A stretch of 64,000 bases of DNA. It comes from an uncultured Clostridia bacterium. Lineage in GTDB: Bacteria > Bacillota > Clostridia > Christensenellales > Aristaeellaceae. The stretch covers positions 1 to 64,000 of the forward strand of contig CAMNEH010000002.1 in the NCBI GenBank assembly GCA_946536315.1, read 5' to 3'. Of the stretch, positions 1 through 64,000 are shown piece by piece. Position 1 is the stretch's first letter; every line of letters begins with the position of its first letter. Under the pieces are notes generated by a model. It saw only the letters and a list, made by a program, of their open reading frames with translations. It was not told where the DNA came from and did no database searches. The position numbers were made by a program, and so were the translations under genes.

Positions 1-2
1 CC

Positions 3-5651: not shown

Positions 5652-5903
<252 letters not shown>

Positions 5904-29273: not shown

Positions 29274-30275
29274 TCATCCTTTGATATAAGCCTGATTCCG
29301 GCTGTTAGGCTTGTCCGGATAAAGCATGCGGATCAATCCCTGTTCTATGGCGGGCAGCAGGGTCGTCTTGCGGAAGCTGACTCTGGATTTCAGGCCAAGC
29401 CTTTCCAAGAGCTGCGTCAGCGTGTATGGGATTCCCGTTTCCATCGCATTCATGAGCGCCTGCACCTGCGGTGAGAGCGCGGCGTCCCGGCCGGAGGCCT
29501 GTTCCAGCGCCCCATCCAGGGTCTGGCTGATGGCCTCCAGCATGAAGGAGATAAAGGCATCGGAATTCCCTGTGCCGTGACAGGCGGCGATGGCGGCATA
29601 GTATCCATCCTGAAAGGCATGGATGCGGCTTTCCAGCGGAAGGTACTGAAAAACCGGGTTCCACTCCGTCAGCAGCGCGGTCTGCCAGAGGCGCGCCATG
29701 CGGCCGTTGCCGTCCTCAAAGGGATGAATAAAGACAAATTCATAGTGAAAGACAGACGAGAGGATCAGCGGATGCACCCGCCCTCTGGCTGCGCGCATCC
29801 AGGCAAACAGAGAGGCCATATGATCCGGCACCAACTGTGGCGGCGGCGCCACGAAGATACAGCGGTCGCCGGAAAAGACACCCTCGTTGTGGGTGCGGAA
29901 CATCCCGGACTCCTGCACCAGCGCAGCGGTCATCACGCCATGCACGCGTTTGAGGTCCTCTAAGGAGTATGGGTCAAACTGTCCCAGCAGCTCATAGGCA
30001 TGCCAGGCGTTTTTCACTTCCTGAATCTCTCTGGCCGGGCCCAGCACCAGCTTTCCATCGATGACGCTCCGGACCTGGTCGAGGGAGAGAGAATTGGCCT
30101 CAATAGCCAGAGAGGAATGGATGGAGCGGATGCGGTTGTTGCGCCGCAGCTGGGGACGGGCCTCAAGCCCTTGGGACAGGTGTATGCGTTCAGCTTTGGC
30201 CGCAATCTCCGCCACCGCGTTGAGCATGGCATCGGTGAGGGTGTAGGGCGGGATATAGCTTTCCATGGGGCGCAC
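29274..30275 (-). CDS. Fic/DOC family protein (probable AMP transferase)
   Basis: Catalytic 'HPFEDGNGRMAR'; N-terminal 'SSLAIEANSL' resembling the inhibitory SxxxE(G/A)N helix; C-terminal winged-helix-like segment. Confidence 0.92.
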   Translation of the reverse strand: MRPMESYIPPYTLTDAMLNAVAEIAAKAERIHLSQGLEARPQLRRNNRIRSIHSSLAIEANSLSLDQVRSVIDGKLVLGPAREIQEVKNAWHAYELLGQFDPYSLEDLKRVHGVMTAALVQESGMFRTHNEGVFSGDRCIFVAPPPQLVPDHMASLFAWMRAARGRVHPLILSSVFHYEFVFIHPFEDGNGRMARLWQTALLTEWNPVFQYLPLESRIHAFQDGYYAAIAACHGTGNSDAFISFMLEAISQTLDGALEQASGRDAALSPQVQALMNAMETGIPYTLTQLLERLGLKSRVSFRKTTLLPAIEQGLIRMLYPDKPNSRNQAYIKG

Positions 30276-30319: not shown

Positions 30320-30391
30320 TATCTTGTATGTTAACTTGTATGCTATCTTGTACGTTAACTTGTATGCTTTCCTGAATGCTGTCCGATATGC
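30320..30391. repeat. Six tandem degenerate 12-bp units
   Basis: TATCTTGTATGT/TAACTTGTATGC/TATCTTGTACGT/TAACTTGTATGC/TTTCCTGAATGC/TGTCCGATATGC, just upstream of the Fic gene. Confidence 0.8.
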
Positions 30392-30626: not shown

Positions 30627-32641
30627 ATTTGATTCCCCTATAAGATTACACTACTCTCAAACCAGTCATGAAATCAATGGAAACTCCATCGAGCTTGATT
30701 CCCCTATAAGATTACACTACTCTCAAACGATCTGTTCACGGAGCTGGTGAACAACCTGGCTTGATTCCCCTATAAGATTACACTACTCTCAAACGACTAT
30801 AGCTATCCAGAATTATTCGGTGATGCTTGATTCCCCTATAAGATTACACTACTCTCAAACTGATTTGGGGTCTTTGAGCGCCCAGGAGTGGCTTGATTCC
30901 CCTATAAGATTACACTACTCTCAAACAAAGAAGGCTGCATCCACCGCCTGTACGGCGCTTGATTCCCCTATAAGATTACACTACTCTCAAACAATATCTT
31001 ATGTCATACGCAAATCTTATGTGCTTGATTCCCCTATAAGATTACACTACTCTCAAACGGGGCCAGACGCCAGAAGCGCACGCCCGCGGCTTGATTCCCC
31101 TATAAGATTACACTACTCTCAAACGCTTGTCCGGCTCGCAGCCGAAGGACACGAGCTTGATTCCCCTATAAGATTACACTACTCTCAAACCTCATGAGCG
31201 CCGGTACAGAAGACATCGAAGCTTGATTCCCCTATAAGATTACACTACTCTCAAACAGAAAGACAAGATACGACCTCACTACACAAGCTTGATTCCCCTA
31301 TAAGATTACACTACTCTCAAACTCAATCAGCCCTGTGCACCGAGCTGATTAAGCTTGATTCCCCTATAAGATTACACTACTCTCAAACAGAAACTAATGC
31401 AATCTTGTATGCTGACAAGCTTGATTCCCCTATAAGATTACACTACTCTCAAACGACACCCGCATGGTCAGCGTCTGCGTGATCGCTTGATTCCCCTATA
31501 AGATTACACTACTCTCAAACAGTTCCCCGTCTTTTTCCTGCTGTCCTTCGGCTTGATTCCCCTATAAGATTACACTACTCTCAAACCTTTCGTCAGCGGT
31601 TTCGTGTGTTGCCAGAGCTTGATTCCCCTATAAGATTACACTACTCTCAAACGCGCGGCCTGGTTTTCTCATGCTGCTCGTCGCTTGATTCCCCTATAAG
31701 ATTACACTACTCTCAAACAGGCAGCCGGAAGCACTCGTCCCGACTCACGCTTGATTCCCCTATAAGATTACACTACTCTCAAACCAAAACCCAATGCAGC
31801 TGCTGATGCAGAAGGCTTGATTCCCCTATAAGATTACACTACTCTCAAACTAATAAAACTATTGGCAATGATCTGCTAAGCTTGATTCCCCTATAAGATT
31901 ACACTACTCTCAAACTACTGACGGGCAGACTGATGAAATTGACGAGCTTGATTCCCCTATAAGATTACACTACTCTCAAACGGCGTGGAAAGAAAGGCTG
32001 AAAAGATGGCTGCTTGATTCCCCTATAAGATTACACTACTCTCAAACGTTCACACCAATTTCGGTGAAGTTGATTCGGCTTGATTCCCCTATAAGATTAC
32101 ACTACTCTCAAACGGCATCCAAATCGCGCCAAACTTCGAGGATGCTTGATTCCCCTATAAGATTACACTACTCTCAAACAAGATTCTGGCGCGGAAGGAT
32201 GCCGAAGTTGCTTGATTCCCCTATAAGATTACACTACTCTCAAACCCGAGTCTCCCGGTTCCATTTTTGTGCCATGCTTGATTCCCCTATAAGATTACAC
32301 TACTCTCAAACGGACAGCTGGGACGAGGTGCTGCGGGATTTGCTTGATTCCCCTATAAGATTACACTACTCTCAAACACGCCATCCAAAGCAAACTCACG
32401 ACGGACAGCTTGATTCCCCTATAAGATTACACTACTCTCAAACTTGGTGCTGACACTAAAGCAAGAGACATAAGCTTGATTCCCCTATAAGATTACACTA
32501 CTCTCAAACGTGTTGTCCCGATTTACACCAGAACTACTCGCTTGATTCCCCTATAAGATTACACTACTCTCAAACCAGAAACTGGAACAGATGTGACTGA
32601 AGGAGGCTTGATTCCCCTATAAGATTACACTACTCTCAAAC
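30627..32641 (-). CRISPR. Type II-A CRISPR array: 31 repeats of 36 bp, 30 spacers
   Basis: crRNA-sense repeat GTTTGAGAGTAGTGTAATCTTATAGGGGAATCAAGC. Spacers are 30 bp except one of 29 bp (31851-31879). The distal repeat at 30627 is degenerate at its last two bases. Repeat starts counted by hand. Confidence 0.99.
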
Positions 32642-32773
32642 CTCAAAATCATGTTCTCCGCGCAGAATTTGTCCATTTGAGGCACGGCATATGGTCAAAA
32701 CCACATGAAACGGCACTACCACCGCAGTGTGCAATCTCAGAATCATTATAGCATTTTGTTGGCAAAATTCAAT
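32642..32773 (-). promoter_or_regulatory. CRISPR leader with putative pre-crRNA promoter
   Basis: On the minus strand: TTGAAT (32772-32767), 16 bp, TATAAT (32750-32745); leader ends ...ATTTTGAG directly against the first repeat. Confidence 0.75.
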
Positions 32774-33437
32774 CAATTTCGCATAAATCACTGTCGATCA
32801 GGATGCGCGCTTCGCGCTGCAGACACGGTCGTTCGCAGGCTTCAATGCCGATCACATGATATCCATGGGACTGGATGGAGGCGGTCAGCGCTTCCATATC
32901 CTCATCACTGATATAGCTGCGGATATTGACCAGGAAGAACAGGCGTTCGGCATCATATTCAGTGATCAGTTCCATGTAATCGAGGAGCCGTTCCGGCAAC
33001 GATTCTCCGTCCGTCATCAGCTTCAGTCCTGTGGCCTTCAGCAGCGAAGCTATGGTAATATCGCTGTAATCAAGCTCACAGGGGATATCCAGCCCCAAAT
33101 CATCCAGATAGTTTTCCACCGCGGCCAGGATCGACGCGGTCGCTTCGTAATGCTCCGCTTCGTTGGCCTTTCTTTCCAGCGCAGCCAGGATTTTATTGAG
33201 CAGCGGTTTTCGGTTCAGCTCGAAAGGCACGAACGTATCCAATATGACAGCCCGTTTTGCAAAAGCCACCGGCCTGTCATTTTCTGAGAGCACTGAAACG
33301 CCGTCCTGCCCATTGATTTGTTTGCTGATATCTGTCAACAGTCGTACAAACAGGTCCTGGTTTTCAATCACCAGGGTATTATAACGCCCATTGTCCGTGT
33401 CGATCAGCGTTTCGATCTCAGGGTGCGCAAACTTCAC
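32769..33437 (-). CDS. csn2: CRISPR-associated protein Csn2 (type II-A)
   Basis: 222 aa; '[37 protein letters not shown]' N-terminus; sits between cas2 and the array. Confidence 0.93.
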
Positions 33438-33754
33438 AGCAGCACCAGCCTTTCATCCGTATTGAGCACCTCGCTGCTCGCTTCACCGACGATGTATTCC
33501 ATCTGTCCGAACTGCTTTTCCGTTACAGTCAATGCCTGAACCAGCCCCTTCGGAGGCTTATGCCGTCGGATCGTGTCGAGCACCGCCTTTTCCGCCGTCG
33601 GCGTAATCAGCAGGCGACAGTACACTGATTCCTGCATCATCAGGAAGCCGTTTTTGATCAACAGCTTCCTGAAATGCCGATAATTGGCCTTATCCTCCGA
33701 CGTATCAGTCGGCAGATCAAAGAATACGATCAGTCTCATAAAGCGGTAGCTCAT
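33434..33754 (-). CDS. cas2: CRISPR-associated endoribonuclease Cas2
   Basis: '[44 protein letters not shown]'. Confidence 0.97.
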
Positions 33755-34626
33755 GGCTTCAAGCGGTAGGACGGCACCGCTTCCCCATCGTCACGGTTCA
33801 ACGCGTTCAGGACGTTCCTTACATAGATTTTCACTGCGTTCAGCACCGTCTGCCTGCTTTTATCCACAATGACCTCCTGATGCAGTATTTCGAGTATGAC
33901 GTGTTTTTCCGCACTCGTGAACTGTTCCGGGGCCATACGGACCACAGCGCGGTCCACCAGGACCCGGAAGGGCTCCATCAAATCACAGCCGAGGTTGAAA
34001 TGATTGAACTGATTGTTGTGAAATACACCCAATTGCGTCAGGCAGCCGCAGGCAGATATTTCCCGGTTCACGATGGACAGCAGGATACTATATCCGTAGT
34101 TCAGCGCGGCATTGATCGGGCTGGCCGCGCCGCGCGTGAACTTCATGCCGAACAGCGCGTTGAAGTAGACCTTCGCGGCGTGACCCTCCCGGTTCGTGGC
34201 GTCCCCGGGTTCGACCTGCGCCTGATACTGCCAGAGCATTTCGCTTTCCGCACGATAGCCGCATTCCGCCAGGAAGTCCGCCTGTTTGCCGATCTTGTCG
34301 CGCATGATCCCCTGCCACATTTTTTGCTTTGTCTCTTCGCGCCACGCGATCTGCTGCCGCATGCGCTCAGCGCTGTCATGGCAGCCGTGATGCGGGACCA
34401 GTTCGGAAATCGGTTCACGCCTGGCGTCGCAAAAAATCACTTTGACCTTCTTATTGGTCAGCGCTTCGATCAGGCTGCCGGTCAGGGAGACCGCCGGGCT
34501 TTCGATCAGCAGAACCGCGACTTCGTCCAGGAATACGCGCCGGATTTCGCGCCCACGCACCGACATATAGCCGAGGCGGTAATCCAGCTTGCAGCGCCCT
34601 GTGATGACGACCGTACGCCAGCTCAT
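33751..34626 (-). CDS. cas1: CRISPR-associated integrase Cas1
   Basis: '[23 protein letters not shown]', '[24 protein letters not shown]', '[22 protein letters not shown]'. Confidence 0.97.
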
Positions 34627-37600
34627 AACAGATCAAGGAGATTGCCGCTTCGCTGTTCCCATAAACCGCTGACGGAGCGGTCGATGATTCGGACAACGGA
34701 GTATGCCTTTGTCCAGTTGGAAATACATGTACTAAGTGTTGTTACAGCCGCTTTTTTTACCCCGCCAATCATTGACAAATCACAGCCGCCACCACCGTTC
34801 CTGGTGAAGAGCAGATGTATGTTAAGCAGCGTTTCCGCCTGATCTGTCAGAGATAGATCTTCAAAAAGCTTTCTGCCATTCTTCAAGACATCTACGGGCA
34901 TATTCATACGTTTGCGGAAGATGGTTTTTTCAGCTTTCTCAATATACAAGTCATATAAACGAAGGTTTTCTTCACGATTGACGCCATCATACTGTGAATC
35001 CGGTATATAGCGGATATTGTTCTGATGCTTTTCAGTCATTGATTCGAGGCGTTTGATGTATCGTTCAGTCGAGGAGGTGTGTACAAATTGCATGAGCGGC
35101 GCCATGACGATTCGTGATCCTCCATTCGAAGTACCTGAAATACACGCTTCGAAGCCATCGAAGGACAGGATCGTATTGACTTTCAAGATTCTGCCATCCA
35201 GAAGCCACTCCACACGCTCCACTGTTTTGCCCAGGATACTGCTGATACGTCCGGTCAGATACTCGATCGCGTATGTATTGTCTTTAAGGAAGCGCTCCGA
35301 TGCCATCAGCTCCACCGGCACCACCATCACATCCCGTTTTTTCCCGGCCTGATACTGCGCAAACACATAGAAACTGACCGAAGGTTTATTGTATCCGCCA
35401 TACTTTGCGATATCAAGGTCTGTTTTCCGCTGTACCTGGCCAAGTCCCGCCTTCAGCGGCATCTGATCGAACAGGCCGCCTTTTTTGCAGAAGGGATACT
35501 TGCTGAAATGGATATTATTCTTTGCCATATACGCGACCGCCTTGTCCTTCATGGTCGCGCCATCCCAGACGGTTTCGCCGTTACAGACGAGCGGGCGCGT
35601 GAAAAGCACCTTCGTGTTCAGTGAATACTCATCATCAATGTGGAACCACTGGCGCGTGAAGCGCATGTTGTACACATTCCCGACGACGATGTTCAGATAG
35701 GCATCCTTGGCATGGTGCAGCTCGTTGTAGCTGCGGCACTTGACGCAATCGAATTCCTGCCTGAATTCGGAGGCCAGCCGCGCTTTGACATATACAACCT
35801 CCGTATCCGGATACGTTTCCCGAATGATCGTAGCGACCGCCTTGGTGGACTGTGACGTTTCCGTCAGCTGTCGGTTGATGAAGCCCCACTTCTCGTCATC
35901 CGTGAAAGCCGTGGCCCGGGTCAGGCGCTTATACTTTTCTTCGCTGATCAGGCCAAGCGCCTTCAGCTTGGTCCAGTAGGGCCGCATTTCCGTCCGGATC
36001 GAAGCGGCGATGGGATAGCTGTCGCTCTTTGCGCCATTCACTTCCGACAGCACCAGCACCTTGTTGTTGATCACGCTGTCGTCCTTGACCTTGGACCGGG
36101 GATAAATATGCTCAATGTCGTACAGCTTGCCGTTCATCAGTTGGTCCAGGTCGATCGTCTTTCCCGTATACATGCACTTCCCCAGCTGCATATAGTAGAG
36201 GAACAGGCGATCCGACTGCAGGCGGTTGTCCACCTGTTCACCCATATCTGCCAGCTGCTGCCGCAGCAAACGCACGTCCTCTTCCTCGCATTGTTCATAC
36301 AGCGCCATGATCTGTTCGCGGCGCGCCTGGGTGCGCTTGCCCTTTTGCTCCGGCTTTCCTCCGCGCGCCATTTCCACAAAAATCTTGTCCGGCGCTTTGC
36401 CAAAAGCTTTCGTGACCTCCTTGACGATCTCCAGTGTCCGGATGATCGGGCGCTTGACGGCATTGGAAATATACATCGCGTCCAGCCGGTCTGTGAGGTT
36501 CATCGGATGGTCGGCATAATAATCCTTCTGTTCCGCCTGGATCTTTTCCATGAATGTATAGCGGTCCGACAGGATCTGCATCATATTGTCATTGGTATCC
36601 CAGAGCGCGCGCATTACCGTAAAGATCTCGCCGCTCTGGCGGTCAGCCCCCTCCAGTTCCGTCAAGAACCGCGCTGAGATGCGGCCAAAATCATGGTAAT
36701 TGAGATGCGAAATATATCGCAGGTCCTGCTCGGGTAAAAAGGCGTAGTGACCTTTCAGCCATCTGACAAAGCGTCCGCTGTCTTCAGCGTATGTCCGCCG
36801 TTCAATGATGTCCTCCACCTGCGCTTCCGTCAGCGCGCCGGTTTCCATCAGACGCGCGAAGTCATGCCAGGGCTTCAGGTCCGACTTGATATTCGTTTCC
36901 GTATCTACTCCGCTCACCTTGTCCGATTTATCCATATAGTGATTGGCGACCAGATAATCGCATAAACGCTTGAACGTCACCTTCCGGTACTTCATAAACA
37001 GGTCCGTATAAATGGTTTGCTTGAGCGCGACGGAAATAGGCTCGCCGTTGATTTTCAGATTGTTGATTTCATTGAGCACCGTAAATTTGTGATAGAGCAG
37101 GGAATCCTTCGGGAGCACCTTCTCGCCGGGCAGGTAGGTGCAGGTATTCGTGAGCTTGGCAATAAAAGCCTGCTCGCTGGCGTCCAGATCGACCTTTTTG
37201 TCAAAGTTCCAGGGATCAATCCTGCCCTCTGCCTTGCGTACCACCCAGGCATATTGGGACTGCGGGTTCAACGGGCCTACAAAATACGGCACCCTGAAGG
37301 TCATGATGCTGCGGATCTTATCTGAAACGCTCAGCCCATCCTGGTCTTTGAGCGAGAGGAAGGGCAGGTAGGTCTGCGCGTTTTTCAGGATTACGTCCAA
37401 TTCATGCCAATAGAGCTGATAGGGGATGACGCGGTTATCCGAATTGACCTGTTTGGGCATGAACGAACGGTCCTCCAGACGGCGCTTCATATCACTCAGC
37501 ATTGGCTCGTCTTCCGGCTCAGGCTGGATGGTGCTGACTAATTTGCTGATGAATTTACAGAAGTCCTCCTGGCTGGCCTTTCCTTCGATCGCAGCCGTAT

Positions 37601-38708
37601 CGCCATGATAGGCATAAGCGGTATACGCATGGGGATCATTGCTCCTGAAGACCGCAGGATACGCTTTGGGCAGGTATTTTCGTACGATATACTTCAGGTG
37701 CTTCAGGTCTTCCTTGTGTTGCCGATATACAGCGACTTTCGCTTTAGAGATGCAGTTGCTTTCCCCCGGCGCGGTCGCGCTGGCGCCGAGGATATCCTCC
37801 AACAGCGCCCAGTCATAGAGCGCTTTCATGCAAACGATCAGTTCGGCGTCCTCGCCCAGGGCGCTCATGACCTCTGCGAGTTCCTCCTCCTTGGAGCCCA
37901 GCGTGAAAGACTTGATTTCGCTGTAATCCGCGTTATTAAAGAGCTGTTCGGCCTTCATGGTCCCGCCGCACAGGCCCTTCAGCATCATCTCAGCGTCATA
38001 GGGAAAATCTTCAGTGTATTTTGATGGCTTGCCGCTGCCGAAACATATGGTTTTCAGTTGCCTGTAACGTTGGTTGATCCCCGCATGCAAATGCAGGACC
38101 TTGCTGAATTCCGCTATATCACAGCCTGTCCACGGCACCTGCTCGCCATTTGCCGCAAAATACGAAAGGAACTTTTCATAGACTGTCTGGAAATCGGTCA
38201 CCTTTTCCACATTTTCCCGATCAATCTCGTTCAGAAAATGTCCGCGATGGATCAGCAACCATTCACAGGCCAGATAGACCAGCCGAACGTCATGGGGATC
38301 AGTTGATGCCATCAGCTCCACGATCAGGTGATGGATCGTCGGATATTGACGGTTGTATTCGCGATCAGTAAAGCCCGGATCATTGAAAAAGAGATAGCGT
38401 TGTTCGCGTTCCTCCGGCTGCAGTCCGCTCATCTGCAGGCGCGCAAAAAAATGGGGATCCACTTTGGAGATCGCCGGCGAAAAAAGCTCCCGCAGCAATT
38501 GTACCCGATGCTGCCGGCGGTCCAACCGGCGGCGGGCAGTACGGAACCCACGGCGTTCCGCATTCAGCTTTGCCTCATCGAATACCGTGACACCCCAGGC
38601 AGGTTCGCCATGAAATTTCAGCACATTGTACGCTTCATCCGTGACGGCGTAACCGACCGAATCAGTGCCAATGTCCAGCCCAAGATAGATTTTTTCCTTT
38701 TCTGACAT
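34623..38708 (-). CDS. cas9: CRISPR-associated endonuclease Cas9 (1361 aa)
   Basis: RuvC-I 'YLGLDIGTDSVGYAVTD'; Arg-rich bridge helix 'RRGFRTARRRLDRRQHRVQLLREL'; RuvC-II 'IFVEMARG'; HNH 'YDIEHIYPRSKVKDDSVINNKVLV'; RuvC-III 'HHAKDAYLNIVVGNVY'. Confidence 0.98.
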   Translation of the reverse strand: MSEKEKIYLGLDIGTDSVGYAVTDEAYNVLKFHGEPAWGVTVFDEAKLNAERRGFRTARRRLDRRQHRVQLLRELFSPAISKVDPHFFARLQMSGLQPEEREQRYLFFNDPGFTDREYNRQYPTIHHLIVELMASTDPHDVRLVYLACEWLLIHRGHFLNEIDRENVEKVTDFQTVYEKFLSYFAANGEQVPWTGCDIAEFSKVLHLHAGINQRYRQLKTICFGSGKPSKYTEDFPYDAEMMLKGLCGGTMKAEQLFNNADYSEIKSFTLGSKEEELAEVMSALGEDAELIVCMKALYDWALLEDILGASATAPGESNCISKAKVAVYRQHKEDLKHLKYIVRKYLPKAYPAVFRSNDPHAYTAYAYHGDTAAIEGKASQEDFCKFISKLVSTIQPEPEDEPMLSDMKRRLEDRSFMPKQVNSDNRVIPYQLYWHELDVILKNAQTYLPFLSLKDQDGLSVSDKIRSIMTFRVPYFVGPLNPQSQYAWVVRKAEGRIDPWNFDKKVDLDASEQAFIAKLTNTCTYLPGEKVLPKDSLLYHKFTVLNEINNLKINGEPISVALKQTIYTDLFMKYRKVTFKRLCDYLVANHYMDKSDKVSGVDTETNIKSDLKPWHDFARLMETGALTEAQVEDIIERRTYAEDSGRFVRWLKGHYAFLPEQDLRYISHLNYHDFGRISARFLTELEGADRQSGEIFTVMRALWDTNDNMMQILSDRYTFMEKIQAEQKDYYADHPMNLTDRLDAMYISNAVKRPIIRTLEIVKEVTKAFGKAPDKIFVEMARGGKPEQKGKRTQARREQIMALYEQCEEEDVRLLRQQLADMGEQVDNRLQSDRLFLYYMQLGKCMYTGKTIDLDQLMNGKLYDIEHIYPRSKVKDDSVINNKVLVLSEVNGAKSDSYPIAASIRTEMRPYWTKLKALGLISEEKYKRLTRATAFTDDEKWGFINRQLTETSQSTKAVATIIRETYPDTEVVYVKARLASEFRQEFDCVKCRSYNELHHAKDAYLNIVVGNVYNMRFTRQWFHIDDEYSLNTKVLFTRPLVCNGETVWDGATMKDKAVAYMAKNNIHFSKYPFCKKGGLFDQMPLKAGLGQVQRKTDLDIAKYGGYNKPSVSFYVFAQYQAGKKRDVMVVPVELMASERFLKDNTYAIEYLTGRISSILGKTVERVEWLLDGRILKVNTILSFDGFEACISGTSNGGSRIVMAPLMQFVHTSSTERYIKRLESMTEKHQNNIRYIPDSQYDGVNREENLRLYDLYIEKAEKTIFRKRMNMPVDVLKNGRKLFEDLSLTDQAETLLNIHLLFTRNGGGGCDLSMIGGVKKAAVTTLSTCISNWTKAYSVVRIIDRSVSGLWEQRSGNLLDLL

Positions 38709-38709
38709 A

Positions 38710-38739
38710 TTGACAAACCTCCCCGAAGTGTTATATACT
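38710..38739 (+). promoter_or_regulatory. tracrRNA promoter
   Basis: TTGACA (38710-38715), 18 bp, TATACT (38734-38739). Confidence 0.75.
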
Positions 38740-38745
38740 TTGTTC

Positions 38746-38851
38746 GTGATTTCCCAAAGAAATTACACTACGCGTTCAAATAAGCTTATAGCGAAATCGT
38801 CGCTCTGCGACCTCACAGTGTGTGAGTAAGCCCCCTACCGGGGGTTTTTTC
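38746..38851 (+). ncRNA. tracrRNA
   Basis: Anti-repeat TGATTTCCCAAAGAAATTACACTACGCGTTCAAAT (38747-38781) pairs with the CRISPR repeat (10-bp perfect GTAGTGTAAT stem plus flanking stems); then AGCGA-AATCG-TCGCT, CTCAC-AGTGT-GTGAG, and terminator CCCCC-TACC-GGGGG-TTTTTT. Confidence 0.92.
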
Positions 38852-38969: not shown

Positions 38970-41168
38970 TTATTCTCGCGTCTTGGCCCCCTTGCTCTTG
39001 AGGAACTGCTTTTCCTGGTACATGAGGTGGTCGGCGCGCTCGAAGACGGCGTGCACGCGCGGGTCGGCGGCGGGGTCGAACACGGCCAGGCCGCCGGAGA
39101 CGACGACGTCGCCGGTGGGGATATGGCTCAGGGACCGGTCGTGCAGCTCGGCCATCAGCGCGTCGCGCGCGGCGTAGTCGCGGCCGGTGAGGAACACCAC
39201 AAACTCGTCGCCGCCGGTGCGGTAGACGGGGCTGTGCTGGAAGAGCTCGCAGATCATGGCGCTGGCGGCGCGGATGTAGTCGTCGCCCGCCTTGTGGCCC
39301 AGGGTATCGTTGACGTGCTTGAGGCCGTTGACGTCGCACACGACCACGGCGAAGGGCTCGGCGCGGCCGGCGTCGATGAGGGCGTCGGTCTCCGTTTCCT
39401 TCTCGATGTAGGAATGCTTGCTCTTGACCCCGGTCAGGGCGTCGGTGTGCACGATGGAGCGGACGTGGCCGAGCTCCTGCTCGCTCTCCTCCGCGCGGCG
39501 GCTCATCAGGGCGTAGTTGTTCAGCAGTACGCCCAGCGAGGTGCCGAACAGCAGCAGCACCGTCAGGATGCTGGTGGCGTTGGTCTGGCGGATGTGGTCC
39601 AGCTGCTCGGACACGATGCCCGTTTCCACCGTCACGCCCTCGCTGGCGTAATAGGCCTGCACGCTGCGCATGGCCGCGTCCGTGGCCTGGATGGTGGACT
39701 GGCTCATCCACACCAGCGAGACGAACAGGATCAGCGAGAGCAGCACGATCCACACGACGATGGACTTGCCGAAGCGCCGGAAGCGGTCGCGCTTCAGGAT
39801 GCCCCTGAAATAGATGAACCCGAGCACCGACCAGATGACGAACAGGAAGTAGGACTCGCGCTCCATGGTCCCGGCGGAGAACAGGTTGGGGATGAGCAGG
39901 TACAGCCCATAGCCCACCATGATCAGCGCGCCCGCGGCGCCGGTCGCCATGACCGCGCGGCGGCGGTCCAGCCGCGCCTGCTTGAGCGCGGCGGCGGACA
40001 CGATGCCGTAGATCAGCGTCGCGCCGAAGCTGGTCACATCCACGATCCAGCCGATCGCGGTGCGGCCCAAGAAGGGGATGACCGCGGACACGCCGACGAT
40101 CAGCATCATCGCCTTCGCGGGCGTGCCGAAGCGCGAGACATCCGCGAAGCGCTCCGGCAGGATGCGGTCCTGCGCGAGCGCGTAGAACAGGCGGCTGAGC
40201 ACGGTCAGGTTGCCGATCAGGCTGGTTAGCACCAGCGCCAGCAGCGTGACCATCAGCACCGCGACACCAAAGCCGCCCATGTACGTCTGCGCGGCGTAGA
40301 AGGCGGGCAGCGCCTCGATGCCCTCTAAGTTGCCCAGGTCGCGGATGTAGGCGAGCCAGCTTTCGTACCGCGGCGGATACGCGGTGACCGACAGCAGCGT
40401 AACGCAGATGTACAGCGCCGTGACCACGAGCACCGACAGCGTGAGGATGCGGAACGCCCTGCTGCGCTTGAAGTTGAACTCCTCCGCGCCGTGGGAGATG
40501 CACTCAAACCCGATGAACGCCCAGGGCGAGATGACCGCGATATTGACCACCTGGCTGAGCGCGCTGCCGCCGGGCACAAACGCCGGCTGCCAGCCCCCGC
40601 CCGAGCGCAGCGCGCCGACGATGAAGCACCCGATGATGCCCACGCAAAGCAGCAGCGCCATGCCGATCATCGCGCGCAGGGCCGCGCCGCGGTAACGGAT
40701 GCACAGCGCCGCCGTCAGCAGGATGGCCGCCAGCGTGAGCAGCGCTTCGCCCAGGTATACGTCGTAGCCGAACAGCGCGTACATGCGCCCGAACCGGAAC
40801 ACATTGCCCAGGAAATACCGCGCGAACAGCGGCAGCGCCGTCGCGTTCGCCCAGAAGACGGCCAGGTAGGTCAGCGCCGCGAACCACGCGCTGATAAACC
40901 CGAAATCGTACCCGAACAAATCCCGCGCATAGGCGTAAGCGCCGCCCGCTTCCGGACAGCGCTCGATCATGTACGCGTAATTGCGGCTCATCAGCAGCAT
41001 CACCAGCGCGCCGGTCACCATGCCCAGCACGCTGCCCAGCGGGCCCGCCTGCGCCAGGTAGGTGTTGCTGGTCACCACCAGCGACCCCCAGCCGATGCTC
41101 ACGCCGATTGAAAACGCCCACGCCCCCAGGGGCGACAGGTTGGCCGTCAAATGCTTTTCTCGTGCCAT
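38970..41168 (-). CDS. APC-superfamily amino acid permease fused to a C-terminal GGDEF domain
   Basis: 'WAFSIGVSIGWGSLVVTSNTYLAQAGPLGSVLGM' and 'ISPWAFIGFECISHGAEEF' APC signatures; C-terminal 'VHTDALTGVKSKHSY...VVVCDVNGLKHVNDTLGHKAGDDYI...VYRTGGDEFVVFL'. Start taken at MAREKHL (41168). Confidence 0.9.
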   Translation of the reverse strand: MAREKHLTANLSPLGAWAFSIGVSIGWGSLVVTSNTYLAQAGPLGSVLGMVTGALVMLLMSRNYAYMIERCPEAGGAYAYARDLFGYDFGFISAWFAALTYLAVFWANATALPLFARYFLGNVFRFGRMYALFGYDVYLGEALLTLAAILLTAALCIRYRGAALRAMIGMALLLCVGIIGCFIVGALRSGGGWQPAFVPGGSALSQVVNIAVISPWAFIGFECISHGAEEFNFKRSRAFRILTLSVLVVTALYICVTLLSVTAYPPRYESWLAYIRDLGNLEGIEALPAFYAAQTYMGGFGVAVLMVTLLALVLTSLIGNLTVLSRLFYALAQDRILPERFADVSRFGTPAKAMMLIVGVSAVIPFLGRTAIGWIVDVTSFGATLIYGIVSAAALKQARLDRRRAVMATGAAGALIMVGYGLYLLIPNLFSAGTMERESYFLFVIWSVLGFIYFRGILKRDRFRRFGKSIVVWIVLLSLILFVSLVWMSQSTIQATDAAMRSVQAYYASEGVTVETGIVSEQLDHIRQTNATSILTVLLLFGTSLGVLLNNYALMSRRAEESEQELGHVRSIVHTDALTGVKSKHSYIEKETETDALIDAGRAEPFAVVVCDVNGLKHVNDTLGHKAGDDYIRAASAMICELFQHSPVYRTGGDEFVVFLTGRDYAARDALMAELHDRSLSHIPTGDVVVSGGLAVFDPAADPRVHAVFERADHLMYQEKQFLKSKGAKTRE

Positions 41169-41274
41169 GATACACCTCCAACGCATCGCAGGGGGGGACG
41201 TCCCCCTACGGTTCGGCCTGCGGCCTCATCCGCCGAATGAATCGGCGGACGCTGGGATTCCGTGCTGAAAAGAA

Positions 41275-55706: not shown

Positions 55707-58700
55707 TCATTCCGTGCTCACCACTGTCAGCGTGCCCGTCGAGGTGGTGACGGTATAATTGCCCGCGCTTCCGCTGCTGAAGCTGTAGGTGAAGGTATTG
55801 TCGCTGGTGCCCACTTCGGTCTGGGCGCCGGTATAGGTGATCGATATCGCGTCGCTGCCGACCAGGCCCGTGACGGCCGCTTCATGGCAGGTCAGCGGCG
55901 TTCCGTCATATGGCTTTGAGTCCGAAGCCGACGTGATGGTGACCGCAGCAGGGCTGACCGTCAGCGTGCCCATATCCGCGTCAATCACATAGTTGCCCGG
56001 CTTCGCGCCGTTCCAGTGGATGGTGTAGCTGTTTTCGACAGCGCCGGCGTTGGTGATCGTGCCCGTCGCGGTGACGGTGATCGCCTCGTCCGGCGCCTGG
56101 CCGTAGACGCTCGCGCCCGCCGTCAGCGGCGTGCCGTCATAGGTTTTGCTGTCAGAATACGTGGTGACGGACAGCGTGGCCGGATTGACCGTGAGGGTGC
56201 CCAGGTTCTCCGTGACGCTGTAGTTGTCCCGGTTGACGCTCCCCCAGTCGATCGTGTATGTGTTGGTCGAGGAGCCGACGTCCGTCTGCGAGCCGTTGGG
56301 ATACACGCTCGGGTACTCGCCGTCAAGAAAGCCCGACATCGGCGCGGTGGTGTTCTCGATGGGCGCGCCGTTATACGTCTGGGTCCCGCCGCCGGTGGAA
56401 ATGGTCGCGCTCTTCCTGATCACCGTCAGGACGCCCGGCGATTTGGTCAGCGTATAGTTATTCGGGTCCGCGTCGCTCCAGACAATATCAAAGGTATTCG
56501 GCGCGTTTCCGGCGTTGGTCAGGCTGCCCGTGACCGTCACGGTGATCGATTCGCCCGCCACCAGGCCGGTCACGTGATAGGTGTCGCAGGTCAGAGGCGT
56601 TCCGTCGTACGTCTTGCTTCGGCCATCGGTGGCGACCGTCAGGGGCGCTTTGGTGACGGTCAGGGTTCCCTCGGTCACCGTGATATTGGTGAACCAGGAC
56701 GTGACATCCATCCCGCCCTTTGAAATTTCATAGTAGACGGTGTTCGGTGAGCTGCCCGCTTCGTACTGGACCGCGTCGGTCCCGACGGAATAATCCAGTC
56801 CGGCAGGCACGCCTGTCATGCTGGCTTCCGTATCGTAATGGGGATGGCCGTCATAGACCGCCGTCAGGGAGGCGGAGGTGACCTGGATGGGCGTGCTGTT
56901 CTTGTTCACCGTGAGGGTCCCCAGGCTTTCGACGATGGTATAGTTTCCGCTGTCAGCCGTGCCCCAGCTGATGGTATAGGTGTTGGGCGCGCTGCCCACG
57001 TTCTCAATGCTGCCGGTGGCGGTCACCGTGGCGGTTTCCCCGTCCGCAAGGCCGGTGACGGAGGCTTCCCCGCCGGTCAGCGCGGCGCCGTCATACGCTT
57101 TCTCTGCCGAAGCGGTGGTGACGGTCAGCGTCCGTTTGTCGACGGTCAGCGTGCCCTTGACCGTCTGAATGTTGGTAAACCACGAAGTGACGTCCGTGCC
57201 GCCCTTGCGGATGATCACGGCGGTCACGGTATTGTCGCCCGCGCCTACGTCCGTTTGGCTGCCGGTCACCGTCGCCTCGCAGGTCAGCCCGGCCGGGAGC
57301 CCGGTCACTGTAAAGCCATCGTCCGTCAGCGGCGCGCCGTCATAGGTTTTACCCGCGGAGGCGGCGGTGACCGTGACCGCGGCGCTGCTCGGCGTCACCG
57401 TCAGGGTGCCGAGCTCCTCTGTCACGGTATAGTTCGCGCTGTTCGCGGTGCCCCATTCGATCTCGCAGGTATTGGCCGTGGCGCCGACATCCGTGATGGT
57501 CCCCGTAGCGGTCGCCGTGGCCGTTTCGTCGCTCACCAGGCCCGTGATGGCCGCCTCCGCGCTCGTCAGCGGCGTGCCGTCGTAGGGCTTCGACGCGGAA
57601 CCGGTGGTCACCGTCGCCTCGCGCTTGGTCACGGTGAGGGTGCCGAGCGTTTCGGTGATGGTATAGTTGTCCGGATTGCCGCTCCAGCTGTTGATGGTAT
57701 AGGTATTCTCTGACGTGCCCACGTCCTTCTGGTAGCCGGTGGCCGTCACGTCCGGGTATTCGCCGTCCACGAAGCCGCTCATCGGCACGGAGGTGGCTAC
57801 GATCGGCTGGCCGTTATAGACCTGGGTTTCGGACTGGGTGGAGATGGTCGCCGGCCGCTTGCTGACGGTGAGGACGCCCAGGGTTGCCGCCACTTCATAG
57901 TTGTTTTCGTCAGCGTGGCTCCAGGTGATGCTGTAGGTATTCGGCGCGGTGCCGGCGTCGGTGATCGTGCCCGTCGTAGTCACTGCGATCTCATCGCCGT
58001 CCGCCAGGTCGGAGACCGTGCACAGGTCACTGGTCAGCGGGGTGCCGTCATACGTTTTGCTGGCTGAGCCGGTGGTGATGGTCAGGGGCGCTTTGCTGAC
58101 CGTCAGGGTGCCGAGGGTGCCGTCCGTTACCGTGTAGTTGCCCGCTTTGGCGGTGCCGTCCCAGGTGAGCGTATAGGTATTGGTCACGCTGCCCGCATTT
58201 GTGAGGGAAGCGCCGACGGCCGTCACGGTTTCGCCGTTCTGCAGGCCATCCACGTGCACCGCCGCGGTCAGCGGCGAGCCATCGTATTCCTTGCTCGCGG
58301 AATCGGTTGAGACGGTCAGCACGGCGGGCTCCACGGTGTTCGTGCCCGGCGTGATGCTTACGATTTCGTACTTGTCTTTCAGATCCGCCCTCAGGGAAGC
58401 GGTCACTTCGACAGAAACCGATCCGACATCCTTGATCGAGCCGGAGGTCATTGTTGCTTCAATGGCGGCCGTGGGCGTGTCGGCTGCAAGGATGCCTTCC
58501 CAGTGAAGCCCGTAAGTGTTCAGGGTCTTGCCGTCATAGGTCTTCGTTTTGCCCTTGACTGTCACGGTCACCGGCGCCTTGGTGACCGTCAGCGCGCCGG
58601 GGACCAGGCTCACGCCGGTGAAGCTCGACGTGCGGTCCTCATCATTCTGGTTATAGATGGTATAGCTGGTGATCGTGTTATCGCTCGTGCCGGGCAGCTT

Positions 58701-61700
58701 CTGTTCGCCGGACGTGACAGCTTCGGCGGTGAAGCCGGACGGGAGCCCGTCCACCGTATAATCAGAGCAGGTCTTCGTCATGCCGTTATAAACTCCTGTG
58801 ACGGATCCGGCGGTGATGGTGACCGGCGTGGTGTTGGCCGTCACGGTCAGTGTGCCGATCTCCTCCGAGACGATCTTGTAGTTGCCTTCTTTCGCGCTGC
58901 CCCAGCTGATGGTATACGTATTCTCCGCTGAACCGATATCAGTGATGGTGCCATTGGTGACTGCCGTGGCCGTCTCGCCGCTGATGAGCCCCATGACAGA
59001 GGCTTCCGGACTTGTGAGCGGGCTGCCATCGTATTCCTTGGATGCCGAACCGGTTTTGACCGTGATATTTTTCGGGTAGACCGTCAGCGTGCCCAGGATT
59101 TCTTGGATTTCATAATTATCTTTGTTGGTGCTGCCCCAATCAATGTCATAAGTGTTGGCGGAAGATCCGGCATCCTTCTGAGAGCCGGTAGTGGTGACGA
59201 TCGGATACTCGCCCTCCACGAAGCCGCTCAGCGACGCGCTGGTATTCGTTACCGTCGTGCCATTATAAGTTGTGACGACAGTTCCGGTGTTAATGGTCGC
59301 CTCACGTTTGCTGACCGTCAGGGTGCCGACGGTGGCGCTGATTTTGTAGTTATCCGGGTTTGCGCCATTCCAGTCGATGGTATAGCTGTTTTCCACCGAT
59401 CCGGCGTTTGTGATGGACGCCGCGGTCACCGTGATGGCGTCCGTCTCGGCGCTGCCGGTCACGGTGGCCGTGCCGGTCAGCGGCGTTCCATCATAGGTCT
59501 TGCTGTCCGTGTTGGTCGTGATGGTCAGCGTCCTGGGCTTGATGGTCACGGTGCTTGATGGCAGGGAGAGATTGTAATTGTCGCAAGCGGCGTTTGCCGA
59601 AATGATGGTGCATGTGCTGGGGTAGGTGCCCACGTCGGTGCCGCCGCCGCCCACTTCGATCAGGAACTCCGCGCCGCCCGGCAGTTTCAGCCTGTACGTT
59701 GTAACCGTCGGCCGGGTGATCGTATACCCCTCCAGGCCGTACGTCACGATTTGTCCGCCCGTTTGGGGGTAACCGTTATAAATCTCGGTCCCTTCTGCGC
59801 GGAAGCTGCCGTATTTGGGGTTGATCGTGAGGGAACCTTTGACCGTGGTGACATTCGTAAAGCTCGCGGTCACATCCCTGTTTTCACTGTCGAGGATCGT
59901 ATAGGCGGTCACCGTGTTGTCCGAGGTGCCTTTGTCTGTCTGGCTTCCTTCGACCGTGGCGGTGCAGGTGTAGCCGTCCGGCAGGCCGGTGACGGTAAAG
60001 TTGCTGTTGGTGAGCGGCGTGGCGTCGTAGGCTTTGCTGCTGCTGTGCGCTGTAATGACGATCCCGGCGGTGTTGCCCGTTACCTCCAGCGTGCCGAGGC
60101 TTTCCGTGATCGTGTAGTTGCCAGCTTTCGCGCCGTTCCAATCGATGGTATAGGTGTTGGCCGTCGTGCCTACGTCGGTGATTGTCCCGGTCGCGGTGAC
60201 CGTGGCGGTCTCGCCGGAGATGAGGCCGGTGATGCTCGCCTCGGCCTTGGTCAGCGGCGTGCCGTCGAACATCTTCGTGGCGGATCCCGTCGTGACGGTG
60301 GCCGGCGCCGGATGGACCGTCAGGGTACCGGGCTGCGTTTCGATGCCGGTGAAGAAGGCGGTCACATCCTGGCTGCCTTTCATGAGCTTGTAGGAGACGA
60401 TCTTGCTTTCGCTGCTGCCCGCGTCGGTCTGGCTGCCGGAGTACGTCGCCGTCAATACAACGCCTTCCGGGAAGACGCCGTCGATGTTGCATGCTTCGCA
60501 GCTCAGGGCTGTGCCGTCATAGGTTTTTTCCGGGGACGCGGCGGTAACTGTGATGGGCATGGTATTGGCGCTCACGGTCAGCGTGCCCAGACTTTCAGAA
60601 ATATCATAGTTTTCGGGATTCGTCGTACCCCAGTTGATGCTGTAGGTATTTTCAGCCGTGCCGACGTCCGTAATGGCGCCTGTCGCGGTAACGGTCACCA
60701 CCTCGTCAGGTGCCAGGCCAGTGATCCCCGCTTCATTCTCTGTCAGCGGCGTGCCGTCGTATTCCTTGGTATTGGAACCGGTGGTCACCGTCGCCTCACG
60801 CTTGGTCACGGTGAGGGTGCCGAGCGTTTCGGTGATGGCATAGTTGTCCGGATTGCCGCTCCAGCTGTTGATGGTATAGGTATTCTCTGACGTGCCCACG
60901 TCCTTCTGGTAGCCGGTGGCCGTCACGTCCGGGTATTCGCCGTCCACGAAACCGCTCATCGGTACGGAAGTCGCCACAATGGGCTGACCATTGTAGACCT
61001 GGGTTTCGGACTGGGTGGAAATGGTCGCCGAACGTTTGCTGACGGTGAGGACGCCTAGGGTTGCCGTCACTTCATAGTTGTCTTCGTCAGCGCCGCTCCA
61101 GGTGATACTGTAGGTATTCGGCGCGGTGCCGGCGTCGGTGATCGTGCCCGTCGTGGTCACTGCGATCTCATCGCCGTCCACCAGGCCGGAGACCGTGCAC
61201 AGGTCACTGGTCAGCGGGGTGCCGTCATAGGTCTTGCTGGCTGAGCCGGTTGTGATGGTCAAAGGCGCCTTTGTGATGGTCAGGGTGCCCAGGCTTTCCG
61301 TGATCTCATATTTATCTTTGTTGACCGTACCCCAGTCGACGGTACAGGTATTCTCGGCAGTCCCCACGTCGGTGATCGTACCGGTTGCGGTCACGTTGAT
61401 CTCGTCGCCATCCGCCAGGCCGGTCACGGTCACTTCCGCGTTGGTCAGGGCCGCTCCGTTATAGGGCCGGCTGGTCGATCCCGTGGAGATGGTCAGCGGT
61501 ATGGCGTTCACAGTCACTTCCGCGTTGGTGTATGAAATGCTGAAGTTCGACGCGCTGGTGGTGTTGAAGGCGCAGCTCCCGGCGAGCGTATGGGTCCCCA
61601 CGTCACCGGAGCCGAAACCTGTGACGGTCAGCACGATACTCTCATATTCGTAGGACAGTTTGAAGTTCGCTGTATAACCGTCGCTGGTGGGCGTCACGCT

Positions 61701-64000
61701 GAGTGGGTTCACGACCTGACCGGCCCTGTTGCCGTTCACATAGGTAATCGTGGGCTGCAGCGCGTCGCCCAGGAGAACGCTTCCGCCGCCGAGGCTGACT
61801 TCAAGCTGCAGCGGCACGATCTTCAGCGTGCCGGGATGCAGCTCCACCTCATACAGGGACGCCAGCTCCGGCTTCCTCCACCAATAGGTCAGGTCGTCAG
61901 TCATGGTTCCGACCTGCCAGAGCACCTCGTTGGAGGAAACGCCGATGCCTGTTTTCGCATCATCCGTGCCGTAGATACCTTCCCACCCGACAGTGGGGGA
62001 GACGGCATACCTGTTATCATACACCTTGGTCAGATCTTCCGACCAGACATTGACAATGGCTTTGTCGATGGTGAGCGTGCCGGGCACCAGCGTCACATTG
62101 GTGAAGAACGCGGTCGCGTCCTGGCTGTTCGGATCCAGGATCTGGTACGAATCGATCGTGTTGGGAATCGACCCGACTTCAAAGCTCAGCTGGGCGGTCA
62201 TGGTCGCTGTGGCGGTGAAACCGTCCGGCAGACCTTCGACAGTAAACTCACTGCTTTTCGCGATGCAGTCATAGGGCTTGTAACGCATATAGCTGGAGCC
62301 GGAAGTAATGGTGACCGGGGTGGTGTTGGCTGTTACTTCCAGAGTTCCCAGGACGTCCGTGACGGTATAGTTGTCTTTATTCACCGTTCCCCAGTCGATC
62401 GCGTAGGTGTTGTCCGCCGTGCCGACGCCGGTGATCGTCCCCGCCGCGGTGACATGAACCACTTCGTCCGGAACGAGGCCTGAGATAGCGGCTTCATCCT
62501 TTGTCAGCGGTGTGCCGTCATACACCTTGGTAGCGGAGCCTGTCGTCACTGTCACCGCCTTCGGAGTGACTGTCAGCGTACCCTTCTCCGTGATCACGTT
62601 GGTAAAGTGCTCCGTCACGTCCTGACTGCCCTTCAGGATCTGATAATCGGTGATCAGGTTATCGCCGCTGCCGGCGTCCGTCTGGCTGCCGGAGATCGTT
62701 ACATCCAGCGTAAAGCCATCCGGCAGCATCTCATATGTGAAAGTGTCGGAAGTGAGCGGTGTTCCGTCGTATTCCCTGGTCTCACTGTCCGCGTAGATAT
62801 AGATGGGATCAGTATTGTACGTTATCTCCAGTGTTCCCAGTTCTTCAATGATCGTGTAGTTAGCCGCCTTCGCAGTGCCCCATTCAATGGTATACGTGTT
62901 CTCCGCCGTGCCGACATCGGTGATCGTTCCGGTTGCCGTGGCGGTCGCCGTTTCATCCGGCACCAGACCGGTGATGGAGGCTTCGCTGCTGGTCAGCGCC
63001 GTGCCGTCGTACACCTTGCTGGCGGAGCCGGTCGTTACGGTCAGCGGGGCCTTGTCCACCGTGAGCGTGCCGGCCACTCCGGTGACGTTGGGGAAGAGCG
63101 CCGTAACGTCGTTGCCGTCCTTCATGAGCGTAAAGCTGATCTTGTTTTCGCTGCTGCCGGCTTCCGTTTGGCTGCCGGTCACGGTAACGACAGGCTCCAC
63201 GCCCGCCGGCAGGCTGCCGGTCACGGTGTATCCGGCGTCTGTCAGCGGCGTGCCGTCATACACTTTGGAACTGCTGGCTGCGGTGATGGTGACCACGACA
63301 TTGTTATTCGTGACTTCCAGCGTGCCGAGAATATCCGTGATCGCGTAATCATCCGCACGGACATCGCCCCAGTTGATGGTGTAGGTATTCTCCACAGAAC
63401 CCACGTCGGTGATGGTGCCGTTGGCGGCCGCGGTGACCGCTGTGTCGGTGGCCGCGAGGCCGGTGAGGGTCACTGTGCTGTCAGTGAGCGGTGTGCCGTC
63501 GTAGGGTTTGCTGGCTGAGGCTGTCTGGACGGTCAGCGGCCTCGGATGTACGGTCCAGTTGGCGGTGTTGCAGCTCCATGTGTAGCAATCCGCCCATTGC
63601 CCTCCGCCCATTATGTAAATGTAGTCGCCGCTCATCGTATGATTTCCGGTGTAGCTGCTGACTCCCTTGATATTCAGGAAGATTTTGTGACCTGTGAACA
63701 GATTGTAGAAAGCCTGGGTTGAAGTGATCCTGTTCTGGGAATTCACTGTGGTCGCATGGCTGCTTAAAGCGGCGGTTTCGCCCGCATGCGGGCCGTTGCC
63801 AAATACCAGCGTGACCTGAGGCTTCGGTGTATAGTCGAGGTAATTGGTACCCTGATATTCGTACTCGGTATCAGCGAGGGTGAAATTCAGCTGGAGGCGT
63901 TCAACGGTCAGGGTGCCGAGGGAGTCATGGATCTTGTAATTGCTTTCCTTGGCCGTGCCCCATTCGATGGAATAGGTGTTATATCCCGTTCCTGCAGTTG
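55707..64000 (-). CDS. Giant secreted-type protein of about 32 tandem MBG-like domains; 5' partial (continues past the right edge)
   Basis: Repeated 'xTVTTGSASKxYDGTPLTxxxxxVTGLxxGExxxVTxTGTITDVGTAxNTYxIxWGxxxxxNYxIxExLGTLTV' units; frame remains open from the called GTG (63746) to base 64000; no LPXTG seen at the C-terminus. Confidence 0.93.
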   Translation of the reverse strand, partial: TAGTGYNTYSIEWGTAKESNYKIHDSLGTLTVERLQLNFTLADTEYEYQGTNYLDYTPKPQVTLVFGNGPHAGETAALSSHATTVNSQNRITSTQAFYNLFTGHKIFLNIKGVSSYTGNHTMSGDYIYIMGGGQWADCYTWSCNTANWTVHPRPLTVQTASASKPYDGTPLTDSTVTLTGLAATDTAVTAAANGTITDVGSVENTYTINWGDVRADDYAITDILGTLEVTNNNVVVTITAASSSKVYDGTPLTDAGYTVTGSLPAGVEPVVTVTGSQTEAGSSENKISFTLMKDGNDVTALFPNVTGVAGTLTVDKAPLTVTTGSASKVYDGTALTSSEASITGLVPDETATATATGTITDVGTAENTYTIEWGTAKAANYTIIEELGTLEITYNTDPIYIYADSETREYDGTPLTSDTFTYEMLPDGFTLDVTISGSQTDAGSGDNLITDYQILKGSQDVTEHFTNVITEKGTLTVTPKAVTVTTGSATKVYDGTPLTKDEAAISGLVPDEVVHVTAAGTITGVGTADNTYAIDWGTVNKDNYTVTDVLGTLEVTANTTPVTITSGSSYMRYKPYDCIAKSSEFTVEGLPDGFTATATMTAQLSFEVGSIPNTIDSYQILDPNSQDATAFFTNVTLVPGTLTIDKAIVNVWSEDLTKVYDNRYAVSPTVGWEGIYGTDDAKTGIGVSSNEVLWQVGTMTDDLTYWWRKPELASLYEVELHPGTLKIVPLQLEVSLGGGSVLLGDALQPTITYVNGNRAGQVVNPLSVTPTSDGYTANFKLSYEYESIVLTVTGFGSGDVGTHTLAGSCAFNTTSASNFSISYTNAEVTVNAIPLTISTGSTSRPYNGAALTNAEVTVTGLADGDEINVTATGTITDVGTAENTCTVDWGTVNKDKYEITESLGTLTITKAPLTITTGSASKTYDGTPLTSDLCTVSGLVDGDEIAVTTTGTITDAGTAPNTYSITWSGADEDNYEVTATLGVLTVSKRSATISTQSETQVYNGQPIVATSVPMSGFVDGEYPDVTATGYQKDVGTSENTYTINSWSGNPDNYAITETLGTLTVTKREATVTTGSNTKEYDGTPLTENEAGITGLAPDEVVTVTATGAITDVGTAENTYSINWGTTNPENYDISESLGTLTVSANTMPITVTAASPEKTYDGTALSCEACNIDGVFPEGVVLTATYSGSQTDAGSSESKIVSYKLMKGSQDVTAFFTGIETQPGTLTVHPAPATVTTGSATKMFDGTPLTKAEASITGLISGETATVTATGTITDVGTTANTYTIDWNGAKAGNYTITESLGTLEVTGNTAGIVITAHSSSKAYDATPLTNSNFTVTGLPDGYTCTATVEGSQTDKGTSDNTVTAYTILDSENRDVTASFTNVTTVKGSLTINPKYGSFRAEGTEIYNGYPQTGGQIVTYGLEGYTITRPTVTTYRLKLPGGAEFLIEVGGGGTDVGTYPSTCTIISANAACDNYNLSLPSSTVTIKPRTLTITTNTDSKTYDGTPLTGTATVTGSAETDAITVTAASITNAGSVENSYTIDWNGANPDNYKISATVGTLTVSKREATINTGTVVTTYNGTTVTNTSASLSGFVEGEYPIVTTTGSQKDAGSSANTYDIDWGSTNKDNYEIQEILGTLTVYPKNITVKTGSASKEYDGSPLTSPEASVMGLISGETATAVTNGTITDIGSAENTYTISWGSAKEGNYKIVSEEIGTLTVTANTTPVTITAGSVTGVYNGMTKTCSDYTVDGLPSGFTAEAVTSGEQKLPGTSDNTITSYTIYNQNDEDRTSSFTGVSLVPGALTVTKAPVTVTVKGKTKTYDGKTLNTYGLHWEGILAADTPTAAIEATMTSGSIKDVGSVSVEVTASLRADLKDKYEIVSITPGTNTVEPAVLTVSTDSASKEYDGSPLTAAVHVDGLQNGETVTAVGASLTNAGSVTNTYTLTWDGTAKAGNYTVTDGTLGTLTVSKAPLTITTGSASKTYDGTPLTSDLCTVSDLADGDEIAVTTTGTITDAGTAPNTYSITWSHADENNYEVAATLGVLTVSKRPATISTQSETQVYNGQPIVATSVPMSGFVDGEYPDVTATGYQKDVGTSENTYTINSWSGNPDNYTITETLGTLTVTKREATVTTGSASKPYDGTPLTSAEAAITGLVSDETATATATGTITDVGATANTCEIEWGTANSANYTVTEELGTLTVTPSSAAVTVTAASAGKTYDGAPLTDDGFTVTGLPAGLTCEATVTGSQTDVGAGDNTVTAVIIRKGGTDVTSWFTNIQTVKGTLTVDKRTLTVTTASAEKAYDGAALTGGEASVTGLADGETATVTATGSIENVGSAPNTYTISWGTADSGNYTIVESLGTLTVNKNSTPIQVTSASLTAVYDGHPHYDTEASMTGVPAGLDYSVGTDAVQYEAGSSPNTVYYEISKGGMDVTSWFTNITVTEGTLTVTKAPLTVATDGRSKTYDGTPLTCDTYHVTGLVAGESITVTVTGSLTNAGNAPNTFDIVWSDADPNNYTLTKSPGVLTVIRKSATISTGGGTQTYNGAPIENTTAPMSGFLDGEYPSVYPNGSQTDVGSSTNTYTIDWGSVNRDNYSVTENLGTLTVNPATLSVTTYSDSKTYDGTPLTAGASVYGQAPDEAITVTATGTITNAGAVENSYTIHWNGAKPGNYVIDADMGTLTVSPAAVTITSASDSKPYDGTPLTCHEAAVTGLVGSDAISITYTGAQTEVGTSDNTFTYSFSSGSAGNYTVTTSTGTLTVVSTE
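57601..58090 (-). repeat. Near-identical ~490-bp internal duplication in the MBG gene (copy 1; copy 2 at 60778-61267)
   Basis: By eye, near-identical nucleotide sequence at a constant offset of 3177 bp, encoding 'STQSETQVYNGQPIVATSVPMSGFVDGEYPDVTATGYQKDVGTSENTYTINSWSGNPDNY'. Confidence 0.85.

Follow-up and report, generated by a model that had tools for sequence, protein, structure and literature searches.

Organization of the locus and its surroundings

In the window (the whole analyzed stretch of 64,000 nt, taken from a MAG that is 83% complete), the minus strand carries four open cas genes at 32769-38708, in the order cas9-cas1-cas2-csn2. These are cas9 (34623-38708, 1361 aa), cas1 (33751-34626, 291 aa, type II family), cas2 (33434-33754, 106 aa) and csn2 (32769-33437, 222 aa, GTG start), the last being a marker of subtype II-A. 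Neighboring genes share 4-bp overlaps, with each start inside the preceding stop, and none of the four contains a frameshift or a premature stop; the coordinates and protein families agree with a preliminary description of this DNA, which had reported four intact genes joined in this way. The matches of Cas9 to Cas9_REC, Cas9_PI, HNH_4 and RuvC, and those of the other products to Cas1, Cas2 and Csn2, all exceeded the curated cut-offs. Cas9 scored 884.6 bits against TIGR01865 (cut-off 100), and the csn2 product scored 156.5 bits against TIGR01866, the model of type II-A Csn2 (cut-off 35), and also matched solved Csn2 chains.

The CRISPR array (30627-32641, minus strand) comprises 31 repeats, each of 36 nt, separated by 30 spacers. 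The repeat, GTTTGAGAGTAGTGTAATCTTATAGGGGAATCAAGC in the cas orientation, is present in 31 copies, with none expected in shuffles, and the spacers are unique and 30 nt long, except for one of 29 nt. The repeats are identical save for the terminal copy (30627-30662), which is altered at its 3' end, as expected for the oldest end of an array. The leader (32642-32768, minus strand, 127 nt) terminates in ATTTTGAG; a TTTGAG-type motif at the leader end is typical of subtype II-A. A promoter-like site, TTGAAT-16-TGCTATAAT (32772-32745), overlaps the csn2 stop, and its -10 element is TATAAT with an extended -10. The orientation of repeat and leader gives the array the same direction of transcription as the cas operon.

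The locus thus combines a Cas9 with RuvC and HNH domains, a tracrRNA with an anti-repeat, and an array with unique, phage-matching spacers, all of which define type II, with a csn2 gene in the operon, a co-directional array and a TTTGAG-type leader end, which define subtype II-A. The earlier assignment to II-A, made from Csn2, is therefore upheld by every II-A feature tested.

The GC content of the locus is 47-53%, versus approximately 64% in the surroundings, and cas9 was found in none of the seven same-genus genomes searched; therefore, the locus was probably acquired horizontally. A same-genus genome, G007 (80% DNA identity), was considered as a representative of the empty site and rejected, because it aligns with the window no further than 28915; synteny is lost there, just before a Fic gene and the CRISPR locus. 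Due to this break, a clean insertion boundary could not be demonstrated. The Fic/DOC-family gene (29274-30275), with a Fic-like C-terminal domain, adjoins the old end of the array and matches SoFic-type models (PADLOC). Between the two, in the region upstream of the Fic gene, there are 12-bp imperfect tandem repeats (30320-30379, consensus CTTGTATGTTAA).

Several other features of the window were recorded. The 738-aa product of 38970-41186 joins an amino-acid permease to a GGDEF diguanylate cyclase domain, and has a 51% identical relative in a same-genus genome. Another low-GC stretch (1-6000, 47% versus approximately 64%) encodes a protein of 1711 aa in which BspA-type leucine-rich repeats are combined with Ig-like domains. 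An open reading frame of 2679 aa at 55707-63746, with 12 YDG and 9 MBG repeat-domain stretches and a strong AT skew, probably encodes a large surface protein.

Relatives of the Cas9 and spacer targets

A first protein scan of genome contigs yielded no relatives of this Cas9, whereas a search with a five-sequence alignment found them. One scan gave 542 confirmed candidates, so that hundreds of related loci exist, and we analyzed 80 loci, most of them in MAGs of Clostridia from gut and rumen, together with a few loci taken from whole genomes. The closest Cas9s found reach approximately 54-56% identity; they belong to Clostridia, chiefly MAGs from rumen and gut. Among solved structures, the best match is FrCas9 (PDB 9JWK), with 707 bits compared to approximately 457 bits for SpCas9; this match extends over residues 6-1358 and includes the PAM-interacting domain (residues 1076-1352). 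These comparisons support the view, already put forward in the preliminary description, that the protein is an uncharacterized ortholog; it is a new ortholog of Cas9, not a new kind.

The system of FrCas9, from Faecalibaculum rodentium, is of type II-A, with the gene order cas9-cas1-cas2-csn2, a 31-unit array, and a tracrRNA upstream of cas9 that runs in the opposite direction to the cas genes; FrCas9 reads the PAM NNTA (PMC8931148, PMC13052146). The window system shares the subtype, the gene order, the number of array units and the position and direction of the tracrRNA. However, FrCas9 is distant, given that its 707 bits fall below the 768-797 bits of relatives that are 37-39% identical to the window Cas9; it has Asp at the position of SpCas9 D839, where the window Cas9 has Glu, and its PAM does not fit the flanks described below. 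The SpCas9 system is alike in gene order, the divergent tracrRNA upstream of cas9, the HNH fold and the catalytic His and Asn, but differs in its lower score and in Asp839, which is Glu in the window Cas9. Much closer are the loci of gut and rumen Clostridia (L002, L007-L055 and others), which are mostly uncharacterized. Their Cas9s are approximately 47-56% identical to that of the window, and they share its repeat type (GTTTGAGAG...), tracrRNA core and nested promoter, whereas the HNH position that is Glu in the window is Asp in most of them.

Credible targets were found for two of the 30 spacers (9 and 5), with eight spacers scanned against viral contigs. Spacer 9 (32048-32077, minus strand) is identical at 30 of 30 positions to the viral contig L191, inside a baseplate wedge gene, with the flank CGTGAATG. 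Spacer 5 (32312-32341, minus strand) matches the viral contig L117 at 26 of 30 positions, including 21 identical PAM-proximal bases, in a phage tail region beside the tape-measure gene, with the flank TGGAGCCC. The two PAM-side flanks agree only in G at +2; with just two protospacers and this single common base, no PAM is claimed. The flanks CGTG and TGGA do not follow the strict NNTA of FrCas9 (T at +3, A at +4); as far as these two sequences go, they reject strict NNTA but define no PAM.

No credible match was obtained for any spacer in 50,697 phage records, for the single spacer seeds 1, 2, 14 and 23 in viral contigs, or, outside the array, in the genome itself; searching several hundred additional genomes from the family and order added no credible target. 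Three sets of partial matches were discarded. Those of spacer 4 (22-23 of 30) all fall in one homologous sequence shared by nine viral contigs, and those of spacer 23, seen in several genomes, trace to a common ABC-transporter-like codon string; both sets are likely to reflect chance or homology and were excluded from the PAM comparison, and the match of spacer 17 to the genome G405 (26 of 30) was set aside with its PAM-proximal base mismatched.

The tracrRNA and its promoter at the cas9 start

The tracrRNA (approximately 38746-38850, plus strand; the start was placed from the -10 box) is located between cas9 and the gene that follows. It contains the anti-repeat, TTCAAATAA, a short nexus hairpin and two covarying hairpins, and ends in an intrinsic terminator (38828-38847 or 38828-38850, plus strand). 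The folding z-score is -4.4 for the tracrRNA alone and -7.1 for the crRNA:tracrRNA duplex, which folds as expected; in Rfam, no tracrRNA family was matched at threshold. Nearly all relatives with enough upstream sequence have a repeat-like sequence in cas9 orientation approximately 75 nt before cas9, which is a tracrRNA anti-repeat on the opposite strand. The downstream core (the TTCAAATAA segment, two hairpins and the terminator) is conserved among relatives. In an alignment of 51 of them, both-side changes were found in 8 of the 9 stem pairs and 95.6% of the stem cells were paired, and none of 500 shuffles attained any of the five covariation measures; it should be noted that such counts can be inflated by kinship of the sequences. 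As a control, sliding the partner columns by 1-3 positions reduced the fraction of paired cells to 23-53%. The preliminary description had listed array, leader and tracrRNA as present, and each was located at the coordinates given here; its suggestion that the system has a tracrRNA of its own is supported by the stem covariation.

The tracrRNA promoter, TTGACA-18-TATACT (38710-38739, plus strand), has 11 of 12 consensus bases and is nested in the start region of cas9. The -35 box, which reads TGTCAA on the cas9 strand, ends 1 nt before the cas9 ATG on the opposite strand, and thereby sits between the start codon and the cas9 Shine-Dalgarno sequence GGGGAGG (38718-38724, minus strand), which itself lies within the spacer of the promoter. 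Comparing 77 relatives with a recognizable tracrRNA, we found a promoter with at least 9 of 12 consensus bases in 74, an in-frame start codon 0-2 nt past TGTCAA in 72, and a Shine-Dalgarno-like string within the promoter spacer in 52 of 58. Apparent shifts of the promoter in L013 and L060 were dismissed as mis-set start codons. In the outgroup loci L130, L131, L136, L137 and L139, the same promoter is found 5' of the Shine-Dalgarno sequence, with 15-26 nt between it and the start. Therefore, across the loci compared, the nesting is clade-specific and conserved.

The fixed position of TGTCAA relative to the start codon in these 72 relatives could alternatively mean that it is a signal for translation rather than a -35 box for tracrRNA transcription. 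We consider this very unlikely, because the motif occurs at only 14 of 926 starts of other genes in the same loci, and because the same promoter stands well apart from the start codon in the five outgroup loci. Moreover, a hexamer resembling the -10 element at 5 or more of its 6 bases is found at 17 bp from TGTCAA in 46 of the 77 relatives, and rarely at other spacings; the -35 position was picked partly by joint score, and therefore the 17-bp peak is somewhat favored by construction.

With TGTCAA taken as the -35 box, the shared start region suggests that tracrRNA and cas9 expression may interfere with each other. A cas9 promoter was sought upstream of the tracrRNA terminator or sharing the tracrRNA -10, and nothing convincing was found. 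The S. pyogenes locus has the same gene order and a divergent tracrRNA upstream of cas9. There, two tracrRNA forms and a separate Pcas allow autorepression through tracr-L (PMC11417352), whereas in the window the tracrRNA promoter is inside the cas9 start region, and neither a tracr-L nor a cas9 promoter was identified. A non-exhaustive literature search found no description of a nested tracrRNA promoter.

The HNH metal-ligand position and the proposed working of the locus

The RuvC residues of the Cas9 (D12, E779, H999 and D1002) are canonical. The HNH domain has H867, N891 and, at the position of SpCas9 D839, E866 (codon 36111-36113, minus strand), a metal-ligand position occupied by Asp in SpCas9. 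The HNH triad of SpCas9 is D839, H840 and N863, of which D839 binds Mg2+; the D839A substitution strongly reduces activity and cripples editing (PMC6706240). The window Cas9 therefore departs from the canonical triad at its first residue, and the earlier statement that the RuvC and HNH motifs are intact holds for RuvC and for the HNH His and Asn, but not for the Asp.

Of the 85 relatives in the alignment, 69 carry Asp at this position and 16 carry Glu, the latter being the window Cas9 and 15 others; L133, a Clostridia Cas9 outside this alignment, also has Glu. The distribution requires eight changes on the tree, at least six of which are forced by well-supported branches. The catalytic His and Asn are invariant in all 85 rows, including the 16 with Glu. 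Position 881 (SpCas9 D853) is Asn in all 16 Glu rows, whereas many Asp rows have Asp there. The HNH region as modeled by AlphaFold2 (pLDDT 90) contains a bba-Me motif, in which E866-H867 falls on strand 1, with E866 at the end of this beta strand, and N891 is part of the helix; compared by fold, the model matches the SpCas9 HNH best. The recurrence of Glu with His and Asn retained makes a tolerated swap probable; thus, Glu866 most likely serves as a metal ligand in place of Asp, in an HNH domain that is still active. A narrow literature search found no mention of a natural Glu at the D839 position.

Given the effect of D839A in SpCas9, Glu866 could lower target-strand cutting. Taken to its extreme, this would make the Cas9 a natural nickase or a slow target-strand cutter, in which Glu866 impairs HNH and immunity depends on RuvC nicking or on binding only. 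That the replaced residue binds Mg2+ in SpCas9 speaks for such an impairment, which we nevertheless regard as improbable: the exchange of Asp for Glu is conservative, H867 and N891 should have been lost from a domain that is dead, and the Asn at 881 common to all Glu rows hints at accommodation. The locus could also be decaying or silent, with old spacers kept and action lost; the horizontal gain suggested by the patchy distribution and low GC content, and the loss of adaptation genes in approximately 15 relatives, would be consistent with this. Conversely, every gene is free of frameshifts and stops, the repeats are identical save for the terminal one, the leader, promoters and tracrRNA are intact, and the adaptation genes are complete, which renders decay highly unlikely.

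We therefore prefer to read the locus as a complete type II-A CRISPR-Cas9 adaptive immune locus, and assign this reading, including the working proposed here, a probability of approximately 0.9. The description "apparently functional" would then draw on the intact genes, the 30-spacer array, the two phage-matching spacers and the conserved catalytic residues. From the observed genes, array, leader, tracrRNA structure, two phage-tail spacer targets and promoter position, we infer how adaptation, expression, crRNA processing and cleavage would proceed. Cas1-Cas2-Csn2, with Cas9, would add 30-nt pieces of phage DNA to the array at its leader end. The promoter at the csn2 stop would drive transcription of the pre-crRNA in the same direction as the cas genes, and the tracrRNA would be transcribed away from cas9, from the promoter packed into the cas9 ribosome-binding region, such that the common start region would make the expression of tracrRNA and cas9 mutually interfering. 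The pre-crRNA would pair with the tracrRNA, the duplex would presumably be cut by RNase III, and Cas9 with crRNA and tracrRNA would cut matching phage DNA beside the PAM.

The locus adds one Cas9 to a clade for which we found little experimental characterization. Two details, Glu866 and the nested promoter, matter more than the locus as such: the Asp-to-Glu change is natural and recurrent and affects a catalytic residue that mutational work on SpCas9 has addressed, and the tracrRNA promoter uses DNA in common with the cas9 start. Both were documented by comparing approximately 80 relatives. A tentative proposal, which we hold to be possible rather than probable, is that this clade hard-wires guide to nuclease, with polymerase at one start competing against expression from the other and so setting the Cas9:tracrRNA ratio without tracr-L, and repeatedly switches its HNH ligand between Asp and Glu.

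The adaptation genes, complete in the window, are missing in part or in full from approximately 15 of the related gut and rumen loci (L007, L009, L017-L022, L032, L034, L044, L054, L067, L074 and L078), which retain cas9, the tracrRNA and the array; many of them also keep the csn2 end and the leader. The deletion breakpoints differ, which suggests recurrent and independent loss of cas1-cas2-csn2 among the relatives. In L022, for example, the first 80 residues of cas1 abut the last 50 of csn2. The other loci of this group come mostly from MAGs, and L019 comes from an isolate.
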